A stretch of DNA of 64,000 nucleotides from an uncultured SAR116 cluster alpha proteobacterium (GTDB lineage: Bacteria > Pseudomonadota > Alphaproteobacteria > Puniceispirillales > Marisalimonadaceae), in the NCBI GenBank assembly GCA_902625215.1, contig CACOAO010000001.1, positions 62,001 to 126,000 of the forward strand, given 5' to 3'. Shown in pieces: positions 6,425 to 51,535 of the stretch. The stretch's first letter is position 1. The number at the start of each line of letters is the position of its first letter. Made by a program: the position numbers and the translations under genes. The notes under the pieces were generated by a model that did not search any database, was not told the origin of the DNA, and worked only from the letters and a program-made list of their open reading frames with translations.

Positions 6425-6453
6425 TTGACTTATAAAAAAAAAAAATGTAAATA
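6425..6453 (+). promoter_or_regulatory. possible sigma70 promoter for secE-nusG, with A12 spacer
   Basis: TTGACT at 6425-6430 matches the -35 consensus in five of six positions. The spacer contains twelve consecutive A residues (6434-6445). At 17 bases lies TAAATA (6448-6453), a poor -10 match. The A-run could act as an UP-like or curved element. Confidence is limited because the -10 is weak and read-through from tuf/tRNA-Trp is possible. Confidence 0.35.
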
Positions 6454-30501: not shown

Positions 30502-31050
30502 ATGTCAAGAATTGAAAAACAGGATAAAAAAAATAACAAAGATGATACGGAATTAATTGATAAGTTAGTTGGTATCAACAGAGTTGCAAAAGTTGTAAAG
30601 GGTGGAAGACGATTCGGTTTTGCTGCACTTGTTGTTGTTGGAGACCAAAGAGGTAAAGTCGGTTTTGGAACGGGTAAAGCAAAAGAAGTACCAGAAGCTA
30701 TAAAAAAAGCTACTGATGATGCAAAAAAAAACATGGTAAAAGTTCCTCTGAAAGAAGGAAGAACATTGCATCATGATATGAAAGGACATTTTGGTGCTGG
30801 TAAGGTAGTGCTTAGGACTGCTCCTTCTGGAACGGGTATTATTGCAGGTGGTCCAATGAGAGCTGTTTTTGAGACATTAGGTGTGCAAGATGTTGTAGCA
30901 AAATCTATTGGCACATCTAATCCTCATAATATGATAAAAGCAACTTTTGATGCTTTTTCGTCAATGAATTCGCCAAGAAATATAGCAAATAAGAGAGGTA
31001 GAAAAGTTGCTGAAATTTTTGGAAAAAAACTAATATCAGATACAGCTTAA
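30502..31050 (+). CDS. rpsE: 30S ribosomal protein S5
   Basis: S5 is part of the mRNA entry and fidelity centre. The 182-residue protein has the double-stranded-RNA-like N-terminal domain [20 protein letters not shown] and the C-terminal [16 protein letters not shown] with [17 protein letters not shown]. It is slightly longer than in E. coli owing to a lysine-rich N-terminal extension of about 18 residues. Confidence 0.97.
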
Positions 31051-36123: not shown

Positions 36124-36157
36124 AAAACCGTTCAAATAACGTGAACGGTTTTTTTTT
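36124..36157 (+). terminator. intrinsic terminator of the ribosomal super-cluster
   Basis: AAAACCGTTCA (36124-36134) pairs perfectly with TGAACGGTTTT (36142-36152) around a seven-base loop, and the T-run continues to 36157. It is 21 bases beyond the rplQ stop and is the clearest Rho-independent terminator in the window. Confidence 0.92.
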
Positions 36158-48227: not shown

Positions 48228-49619
48228 ATGAAAGATTATTCAATAACAGATATAAATCTTGCCGAATGGGGTAGGAGAGAAATCTCAATTGCTGAGACTG
48301 AAATGCCAGGATTAATGGCATGCAGAGAATTGTTTTCTAAGGATAAGCCATTAAGAGGAACAAGGATTGCAGGTTGCCTTCACATGACAATTCAAACAGC
48401 AGTTCTTATAGAAACCTTAATCAGCCTTGGAGCAAATGTGAGGTGGGCTAGCTGTAACATTTTCTCAACTCAAGATCACGCAGCAGCAGCAATTGCAAAA
48501 CTAGATATTCCCGTTTTTGCAAAAAAAGGAGAAACTTTAAAAGAATACTGGAATTATGTAGATCAAATATTTACTTGGTCGGATGATACAGTTGCGAATA
48601 TGATATTAGATGATGGGGGTGATGCAACTTTATATATTATACTAGGCGCTAAAGCTGAAAATGGTGAGCAAATTTTACCTAACCCTGCTAATGAAGAAGA
48701 AGAAGCTCTTAAGGCACAAATTTTATCCAGACTTCAAAGCTCTCCAGGATGGTTCACTAAAGTTAAAAATAGTATAAAAGGTGTTACTGAAGAAACAACT
48801 ACAGGGGTTCTTAGATTATATCAAATGGCAGAAAAAGGTGACCTTCCTTTTCCAGCAATTAATGTGAACGATTCAGTTACAAAATCTAAATTTGATAACC
48901 TTTATGGATGTAGAGAGTCTCTTGTCGATGGCATAAGAAGAGCCACTGACGTGATGTTATCAGGTAAAGTAGCTGTTGTTGCAGGTTATGGTGACGTTGG
49001 CAAAGGATCTGCTGCTTCACTTCGTCAAGGTGGAGCTAGAGTAATTGTAACTGAAATTGACCCAATATGTGCATTGCAAGCTGCAATGGAAGGATACGAA
49101 GTATGTTCTATGGAAGAAGCATGCTCCAGAGGTGATATATTTGTAACAGCAACTGGAAATAAAGATGTTATCACTGTGGATCACATGAGGGAAATGAAAG
49201 ACAGAGCAGTCGTGTGTAACATTGGTCATTTTGACTCAGAAATACAAGTTGAATCACTTCAAAATATGAAATGGTCGGAAGTTAAACCACAAGTGGATGA
49301 GGTGGAGTTTCAAGATGGTAAACGTCTAATTGTTCTAGCAAAAGGAAGATTGGTGAATTTAGGGTGTGCTACTGGACACCCTAGTTTTGTAATGAGTGCT
49401 TCTTTTACTAATCAGGTTCTTGCCCAGATAGAGCTGTGGGAAAAGCCAGATAATTATGAAAATAAGGTATATACGTTACCAAGACATTTAGATGAAAAAG
49501 TTGCTAAATTGCATCTTGATAAAGTTGGTGCTACTTTAAGTAAGCTCTCAAATGAACAAGCGGAATATATTGGTGTCCCTGTACAAGGGCCGTTTAAATC
49601 AGACAATTATAGATACTAG
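48228..49619 (+). CDS. ahcY: adenosylhomocysteinase (SAH hydrolase)
   Basis: AhcY splits S-adenosylhomocysteine into adenosine and homocysteine, relieving inhibition of methyltransferases. The 463-residue tetramer-forming enzyme carries [32 protein letters not shown] with the substrate lysine, the NAD-binding [25 protein letters not shown] and the C-terminal dimer segment ending FKSDNYRY. The ribosome binding site is AAAGGA. The 78-base gap upstream lacks a recognisable SAH riboswitch. It follows chvG as in many alphaproteobacteria, but the usual HPrK/PTS genes between them are absent. Confidence 0.97.
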
Positions 49620-49622
49620 TTT

Positions 49623-50107
49623 ATGAAATTGTTATTTGAAATAACGATTAAATCAAAATCTGAAATGCATGAATTTGGCATAAAATTAGCAAATTTATTT
49701 TCACCTAATGATTTGATTACATTTAATGGCGATTTAGGTGTTGGCAAAACTTTTCTATGTAAGTCGATAATTAATTATTTATCAAAAATTAACGAAATTG
49801 TAAGTCCTACATTTAATATTGTTCAAACATATCCGTTATATAAAGATAAAGAAATATGGCATTGTGATTTTTATAGGATTAACAGTTATGAAGAGGTGAG
49901 AGAGATTGGTGTTTTTGAAGAGATAAAAAAAAAATTATTCTTCTTGAATGGCCAAAGTTTGAACTTGAATTAAATCAATTTAATCCTTTAAGTGTTGATA
50001 TTGCAATTCTAGAGAGTAATCACAGTAATTTATCTGAACGAAGAAAAATTTCTTTATCTGGTTCAAAAAAATGGGATAATAAAATTAAAAATTTACATAA
50101 TTTTTAG
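49623..50107 (+). CDS. tsaE: TsaE, t6A tRNA-modification ATPase, reading frame broken by -1 shift at an A10 run
   Basis: TsaE works with TsaB/TsaD in making t6A37 of tRNA and is nearly universal. The first frame (49623-49973, 116 residues) has the P-loop FNGDLGVGKTFL and IWHCDFYRI but then runs into an unrelated end. At 49925-49934 lies A10. In the -1 frame after it the sequence reads IILLEWPKFE, the expected conserved EWP motif, and continues to a TAG at 50105-50107 (ending KIKNLHNF). A shift at A10 restores a 161-residue protein of normal length. The start is three bases after ahcY. Options: sequencing error, transcriptional slippage or -1 frameshifting, or a dying gene. Confidence 0.85.
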
Positions 50108-50125: not shown

Positions 50126-51535
50126 TTGAATTTCGTCTTCTATGACTTAGAAACTACAGGAAAAAATTCTGCTTGGGATCAAATTATTCAAGTGGCCGCT
50201 ATTCTTACAGACGATAAATTTAATATTATTGACAAATATGAAGAGAGATGTCGATTAAAAAAAGGTTTAGTACCTTACCCTGAAGCATTAATTGTAAATA
50301 AAACATCAGTTAAAATTTTAAAAAATACAAATTTGTCCCATTATGAGTTAATAAAAAAAATAGAAACAACATTTAAAAAATGGTCACCTGCATTTTTTAT
50401 CGGATATAATTCAATAAACTTCGATGAAGAGTTTATTAGAAAAACTTTTTTTAAAAATCTTTTTGAACCCTATTTAACACAATTTAATGGTAACAAAAGA
50501 GCTGATGTGATTGGCATGACTAGAGCTTCTAAATTTTATTATCCTGATTTTTTAAAAGTCGGAATTAATGAAAAAGGGAATCAGATTTTTAAATTAGATG
50601 CCTTAACTGAACTTAATAATATTGCTCACAATGCTCATGATGCTATGGGCGATGTAGACGCAACGATACAAATTGCCAAAATTTTGAATAAAAGTGCTAA
50701 GGAAGTTTGGAATGCTGGGCTTCAAAATAATCATAAAATTGATGTGGATAACTTCTTAATCCAAAATAATATTGTTTGTATGGATGAATATCTTTTTGGT
50801 AAATTTAATGTTCACGCTGTTACCTATGTGTGCAAAAATCAATTTAATTATCCTCAATGTTTCGATTTAATGCATGACCCTTTGGATTATATTGATATGT
50901 CTATTAAAGATTTAAAAGTTAGAGTAAAACAAAAACCTAAGTTAATTAAAGAAATTAAAAATAATAAAAATCCCATCTTATTAGATTCAAGCTTTGTTGA
51001 AAAAATACCAATGTATGAAACGATTGGAATAGAAGTTTTAACTCGTAGAGCAGAAATTATTAAAAATAGCCCTGATTTTAAAAGTAAGATCCAATCAATT
51101 CTTTATGAAGAGTACGAAGCAAAACAGTTGTCTAATTCACAAGTTGACATATTGCCTGAAGAAAGTATTTATTCTGCTGGGTTTCCGGACAATTACGAAA
51201 AATCTAAAATGGTTGATTTTCACAATGCTGATTGGGAAGAAAGATTTTATATTGCAAATCAGTTCAAAGATGAACGATATAAATACTTTGCTTATATGTT
51301 AATTTATGAAGAGATGCCTCATGTGCTACCAAAATCTGACTATGAAAAAATTCATAAAATTATTGCGAATCAGATTTTAAGTACTGATAATGAAAAGTGG
51401 AATACAATTCCTAAGGCTTACCATGAACTAGATAATTTGCGTGAAAAATATGAAAAACAAGGTAATGACGAAAAGTTACTGTTCTTAGCAGATTGGGATC
51501 ATTATCTACAAGATCTTGAAAAACAGTATCAATAA
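50126..51535 (+). CDS. sbcB: exodeoxyribonuclease I (SbcB/ExoI)
   Basis: ExoI degrades single-stranded DNA 3' to 5' in mismatch repair and recombination. The 469-residue protein, close to the E. coli length, has an N-terminal DEDDh exonuclease domain: FYDLETTGK (Asp7, Glu9), GYNSINFDEEF, and AHDAMGDVDAT with the histidine and final aspartate. Then follow the SH3-like and helical C-terminal parts, ending LFLADWDHYLQDLEKQ. The start is TTG 50126 with GAGG at 50114-50117. Confidence 0.9.
   Translation: MNFVFYDLETTGKNSAWDQIIQVAAILTDDKFNIIDKYEERCRLKKGLVPYPEALIVNKTSVKILKNTNLSHYELIKKIETTFKKWSPAFFIGYNSINFDEEFIRKTFFKNLFEPYLTQFNGNKRADVIGMTRASKFYYPDFLKVGINEKGNQIFKLDALTELNNIAHNAHDAMGDVDATIQIAKILNKSAKEVWNAGLQNNHKIDVDNFLIQNNIVCMDEYLFGKFNVHAVTYVCKNQFNYPQCFDLMHDPLDYIDMSIKDLKVRVKQKPKLIKEIKNNKNPILLDSSFVEKIPMYETIGIEVLTRRAEIIKNSPDFKSKIQSILYEEYEAKQLSNSQVDILPEESIYSAGFPDNYEKSKMVDFHNADWEERFYIANQFKDERYKYFAYMLIYEEMPHVLPKSDYEKIHKIIANQILSTDNEKWNTIPKAYHELDNLREKYEKQGNDEKLLFLADWDHYLQDLEKQYQ

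Follow-up and report, generated by a model that had tools for sequence, protein, structure and literature searches.

In two genera of the SAR116 cluster an exact run of ten adenines (A10) keeps tsaE out of frame, and the full-length protein, which takes part in t6A synthesis, is probably produced by slippage at this run. In 25 of the 28 genomes of these neighbouring genera the run breaks the gene at an identical codon phase, and both the head and the tail of tsaE are under purifying selection. As judged from sequence comparison, RNA-polymerase slippage is the most likely route to full TsaE, and a -1 slip of the ribosome is a possible one.

The gene was found in a 64,000-nt stretch (the window) of an assembly comprising 2.0 Mb in 66 contigs with a completeness of 88.8% (Table 1). 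Frame 0 starts with an ATG, crosses the run as ATA AAA AAA AAA TTA, and ends after 116 codons. It matches the Pfam TsaE profile from position 2 to 95 of 128, and the head proper covers the profile only up to positions 90-95. Past the run the reading resumes one frame back, where the DNA reads IILLEWPKFELELNQ... until the stop at 50105-50107 and encodes IILLEWPKF...HNF. The head (104 residues) and the tail together make 161 residues, and the corresponding sums ranged from 161 to 167 across the 25 broken genomes. The preliminary description of this locus had placed the break exactly at the A10, with a first frame derailing behind a P-loop and an HCDFYR motif and a -1 frame reading IILLEWP to a stop that completes 161 residues; on rereading of the sequence, its coordinates and all these features proved correct.

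Table 1. Features of the tsaE locus in the window
Feature	Coordinates	Strand	Evidence or remark
ahcY, S-adenosylhomocysteine hydrolase; conserved gene upstream of tsaE, basis of the tree	48228..49619	+	
tsaE, first part, with P-loop GDLGVGKT and HCDFYR, through the A10	49623..49934	+	PF02367, E 2.2e-25
A10, proposed slip site	49925..49934	+	Same codon phase in 25/28 clade genomes
Frame-0 stop TAA at codon 117, with the full-length stop 134 nt further on	49971..49973	+	
tsaE, second part, -1 frame, IILLEWP tail, 57 aa, stop TAG	49934..50107	+	Median dN/dS 0.456
Exonuclease I-like gene	50126..51535	+	PF08411, PF00929

A Pfam search with the tail alone gave no match. The tail aligned with the tails of three unbroken relatives, whose full proteins span the TsaE profile from position 2 to 120-126 of 128; the TsaE of an unbroken relative also matched TsaE chains in the PDB (9zw5, 1htw, 5mvr, 6nak, and others). 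The TsaE motifs (P-loop, HxDxYR, and EWP) were present over the full profile, and the protein belongs to the TsaE/YjeE family (PF02367). Genes for the partner proteins TsaB, TsaC, and TsaD were identified in the same genome without inner stops: PF00814 was found twice, in open frames of 372 aa (taken as TsaD) and 244 aa (taken as TsaB), and PF01300 once. The TsaC/Sua5 protein (contig 10, L167:643-2424) consists of 593 aa, with an inositol-monophosphatase-like domain fused to its N-terminal side (PF00459, PF01300, and PF03481).

Comparison of the run in related genomes, which had been proposed in the preliminary description, proved to be the deciding test. Among the named genomes, the close relatives belong to the SAR116 cluster of alphaproteobacteria; record names beginning with AG- or SCGC AAA536- are presumably single-cell names, although many of the titles say MAG. 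The first 24 loci of the genus (the source genome and 23 relatives, with the contig-edge piece G029 left out) comprised 21 with an exact A10 and the tail one frame back and 3 in frame. Four further loci added from named genomes (L038, L049, L057, and L058) were all broken at A10, and their contig places agree with those of G087, G094, G062, and G061 in a survey of the order; L056-L058 come from metagenome bins. Of the three in-frame genomes of the clade, two have A11 and one has an extra T before the A10, so that the run is A10 or A11 in all 28. No tsaE match was obtained for 12 of 36 same-genus relatives, nor for G075 in the order survey; since the 12 genomes are 53-80% complete, the absence may reflect assembly gaps, with gene loss as a further possibility.

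The order survey gave a match in 95 of 121 genomes, including a weak one in G018 that lies elsewhere and is not tsaE-like. Matches reaching the site were short (108-117 aa) in the genera g1 and g11, except for three of g1 with 165 aa, and G029 of g1 appeared as a contig-edge piece. Genera g12 and g13 of the same family had open frames, as did the other families, apart from the contig-edge pieces G088 and G106. Both outgroups used for the tree (L060 and L063) are in frame through A7. Elsewhere in the class, tsaE was matched in 286 of 289 genomes, and each of the matches listed had an open frame, none shorter than 138 aa. Two bins titled Paracoccaceae and Rhodobacteraceae (L065 with A10 and L068 with A8) have an A-run at another place of tsaE, at offset 160 from the match start, and in frame.

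A DNA tree of ahcY was built for the 28 clade genomes and the two outgroups. Three changes of frame state are needed on this tree, and three are forced by its starred branches; the count by itself cannot tell gain from loss. The simplest history would be one gain of the break on the 100/100 branch at the base of the 28 genomes, followed by two reversions (one in L042 and one in L044 with L059).

A wrong base call, suggested earlier as one way to account for the break, can be set aside, since an identical error would have to have occurred in many independent assemblies to give this A10 in 25 of 28 genomes. Homopolymers are error-prone, and breaks confined to single genomes do exist in this group (the CoA-transferase-like gene of G021 and an A7 break of G013, see below), but the accessions come from several projects, and two relatives have A11 assembled at exactly this position. 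In addition, 855 kb of the same assembly contained 66 in-frame runs of at least nine A within genes (71 by looser criteria); such runs do get assembled in frame. A run of A12 in the window (6434-6445), which has no long frame on both sides, indicates that runs longer than ten are assembled here as well.

Nor does the gene look like a decaying pseudogene. The heads of 24 genomes were aligned, and 38 of 101 columns were invariant. Among the 300 pairs of the 25 broken genomes, the head had a median dN/dS of 0.215 (192 pairs usable) and a pN/pS of 0.310 (all pairs), and the tail in its own frame a median dN/dS from 224 usable pairs as given in Table 1 and a pN/pS of 0.575 (all pairs). The tail evolves faster than the head (0.456 versus 0.215), and the values bear out the earlier impression of selection on both halves. 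Read in frame 0, the first 35 codons of the tail DNA contain two to four stops in each of the 25 broken genomes. Only one tsaE hit above the family cut-off was found in the source assembly; a candidate second copy on contig 6 fell below it, and its frame appeared ABC-transporter-ATPase-like from the sequence. Altogether, an artefact or a pseudogene is extremely improbable. With base-call error and pseudogene rejected, slippage or -1 frameshifting is left, the pair of mechanisms already named in the preliminary description.

The run itself is conserved. Its lysine codons are AAA in 75 of 75 cases in the broken genomes, and the base preceding them is A in 25 of 25. This tenth A, which closes a Leu or Ile codon, is present in every broken genome, which is beyond the need of a ribosomal heptamer. 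For comparison, ahcY has 19 columns that are Lys throughout, and only 3 of them are AAA throughout in 24 broken genomes; on the tree (27 rows) these columns show 2.4 third-base changes each, and 16 of the 19 change at least once. At this rate about seven changes would be expected in the three codons of the run, and none was seen. The head of tsaE has only two invariant Lys columns, neither of them all AAA. Part of the AAA constancy could be due to the need for lysines.

The persistence of ordinary runs was assessed by following the in-frame runs of at least nine A of the source genome (G000) and of G013 into the sampled parts of other genomes. They were still at least nine A long at 7 of 19, 3 of 21, 3 of 14, and 7 of 23 orthologous places. 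None of the followed runs is A10 or longer, a zero that makes an unfair comparison with the tsaE run because most runs began as A9 and there were 14-23 places per pair.

Two features of programmed transcriptional slippage were found at this site, namely a frame change located at a homopolymer of at least nine A (A10 in all 25 broken genomes) and conservation of the run and the frame change between species with selection on both frames. Runs of nine A or T are reported to cause efficient transcriptional slippage in bacteria in vivo, and 12-50% of transcripts were reported to be corrected at poly(A) tracts in endosymbionts (PMC5009743). Selection against such runs is described as becoming visible from length nine in many genomes (PMC1088944). 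While copying the A10, RNA polymerase would add one A, or omit two, on part of the transcripts. The corrected fraction of the mRNA would yield full TsaE of 161-167 aa, and the uncorrected remainder would end after 104-116 aa, without the EWP motif.

The same site could also be served by the ribosome. On a uniform A10 message, two tRNA-Lys could slip back by one base on A-AAA-AAA, and ribosomes have been reported to slide on consecutive AAA codons in vitro (PMC9207662). The phase and the direction of the frame change fit such a slip, with an X-XXY-YYZ heptamer in the right phase and perfect re-pairing, and the three Lys codons offer several slip positions. In L056-L058 the run is followed immediately by the frame-0 stop, which in the other broken genomes comes 3 or 12 codons later. 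In 23 of 25 genomes, Shine-Dalgarno-like pairing (-5 kcal/mol or better) was found within the 25 nt upstream; for L034, L039, and L041 (GAGGAG, about -10) and for L058 it is stronger than in any background stretch of the gene, but elsewhere up to 37% of background stretches match it. The pairing is weak, and its place varies (-25 to -10) and falls mostly over Gly codons that are conserved in TsaE anyway. Moreover, the length conserved is ten A and not seven, and it takes in an A outside the heptamer; no conserved RNA structure was found downstream that could act as a stimulator (pseudoknot-free folds of 25 genomes; mean z -0.40, consensus -0.4 kcal/mol). Programmed -1 ribosomal frameshifting is possible but rather unlikely as the explanation of the break, although a ribosomal slip may contribute to the output of the gene. 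Sequence comparison cannot separate polymerase from ribosomal slippage, and the polymerase step is stated as a preference only, since A10 and the upstream Shine-Dalgarno-like pairing also suit a ribosomal slip.

An unbroken frame is only one indel away and is present in two lineages, yet it is rare, which suggests that selection favours the out-of-frame state. The simplest form of such selection would be dosage control, with full-length TsaE being made from a fraction of the transcripts. Bacteria normally need tsaE, but, as a point against this reading, it has been reported as non-essential in Escherichia coli without oxygen and as missing from a Serratia symbiotica (PMC5013485).

Selection for the out-of-frame state would also be explained if the short form of 104-116 aa were itself functional, for example as a competitor for TsaD-TsaB, and slippage set the ratio of the two products; dnaX is described as making two useful products from one slip site. 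However, the frame-0 stop falls at codon 105, 107, 108, or 117 depending on the lineage, and the short product is unlikely to be a selected one because its end differs in this way. It also lacks the EWP strand, and two lineages are in frame. Overall, a two-product gene appears improbable.

The downstream exonuclease I-like gene offers another conceivable target of selection, if only ribosomes that have changed frame reach its start and the slip couples and tunes its expression. In the window the start candidate lies 18 nt past the full-length tsaE stop, making translational coupling of the two genes possible. A start candidate occurs -4 to +25 nt from this stop in all 30 loci, and in the 25 broken loci the frame-0 stop is situated 134-185 nt upstream of it. 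Slippage in spa13 is reported to affect spa32 strongly in Shigella (PMC5009743). Nevertheless, the same spacing is seen in the unbroken outgroups and in the revertants, and coupling thus needs no frame shift; selection acting through the exonuclease is very improbable. The start candidate is TTG (or GTG) in the subclade of the window and ATG in the other loci (window 50126, L033-L063).

Other A-runs were inspected in samples of three genomes (0.86, 0.40, and 0.80 Mb), which cover less than half of each genome and all hold tsaE, in the window or, for G021, in a stretch fetched for this gene. No further shared intragenic break at a run of at least nine A was recognised by eye in these samples. 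The 855 kb of the source genome contained five frame-change candidates at such runs, of which tsaE alone was judged intragenic by eye, and most of the cross-genome candidates listed looked like conserved boundaries between neighbouring genes. A shared candidate at an A9 (window 36149-36157, minus strand, and contig 2 of G013) proved to be an antisense reading over a terminator-like hairpin. The other candidates of G021 at runs of at least nine A were gene junctions or gene ends, as judged by eye. Within the window, a second A10 at 2781 lies at the end of a gene, and the A9 runs at 30723, 42351, 44648, and 57812 are located within frames open on both sides.

Shorter runs gave breaks of a different kind. 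A CoA-transferase-like gene on contig 2 of G021 (L154:17388-17395) is broken at A8 in this genome only; a search of 22 relatives of the genus and the source genome found the frame open (240 aa) in the 15 other matching genomes of the genus, and the break is best read as a recent mutation or an error. A break at A7 was found only in G013 (contig 1, about 137255-137261, L131), and its halves are in one frame in G000 and G021. An A7 on contig 3 of G000 marks a variable gene end.

Genes with A-runs rescued by slippage are a known kind, with dnaX and genes of Blochmannia as examples, while tsaE and SAR116 are unreported as far as found. A GeneTack study lists nine two-ORF dnaX genes with ten A's (PMC3711429), and the dnaX of Thermus thermophilus has nine T in the template. 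In these genes polymerase slippage is described as yielding the full or second product, as proposed here for tsaE, and the halves of the two-ORF dnaX are out of frame, as in tsaE; in T. thermophilus, unlike tsaE, the long product is encoded in one frame. Both dnaX products are DNA-polymerase subunits, whereas tsaE encodes a tRNA-modification ATPase whose short form has no conserved end. In Blochmannia and Buchnera, frameshifts at poly(A) tracts are reported to be rescued by transcription (PMC3017870). These cases resemble that of SAR116 in that the genomes are AT-rich and important genes are broken at A-runs, with some breaks conserved between species. Their frames are described as being rescued on part of the transcripts, as is proposed for tsaE. 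Blochmannia and Buchnera are, in contrast, endosymbionts restricted to their hosts, and a genome contains several genes of this type (eight in B. vafer). The SAR116 genomes belong to ocean bacteria and measure about 2 Mb; 0.86 Mb yielded one recognised gene of this type, and the exact A10 is found in 25 of 28 genomes. Among the titles and abstract openings surveyed, no tsaE frameshift, no slippage in SAR116, and no clade-wide exact A10 break in a free-living group was found.

TsaE is described as needed for t6A37 on ANN-reading tRNAs (PMC9654439), and by analogy the A10 might act as a feedback sensor of t6A, comparable to a prfB-like loop for tRNA modification. When t6A falls, poorly modified tRNA-Lys would slip more on the AAA run, more ribosomes would reach the EWP half, and TsaE would be restored. 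The identity of the gene is consistent with such a loop, as is a slip site of invariant AAA codons that are read by a t6A-bearing tRNA (tRNA-Lys), and the sampled genomes showed no other recognised shared intragenic break at a run of this length. Loss of t6A genes in yeast is also reported to raise both +1 and -1 frameshifts (PMC4717488). On the other side, slippage of the polymerase would not respond to t6A. The title of a cited paper states that modifications altering +1 frameshifting generally fail to affect -1. No tRNA-Lys gene was present in the stretches scanned. The autoregulatory +1 frameshift of prfB (release factor 2; PMC3711429), in which a frame change within a translation gene responds to the activity of the gene's own product, serves as an analogy for this feedback only, because direction, site, and mechanism differ from those of tsaE. 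A sensor of t6A is an unlikely proposal, since a polymerase mechanism would not sense the modification.

Homopolymer breaks of this sort are normally annotated as errors or pseudogenes, and here one keeps an ordinary housekeeping gene out of frame in a group of marine bacteria. Should the slip respond to t6A, the site would constitute a self-correcting circuit for a universal tRNA modification. Why selection keeps a gene that probably depends on slippage is now directly testable, with the natural in-frame relatives as controls.
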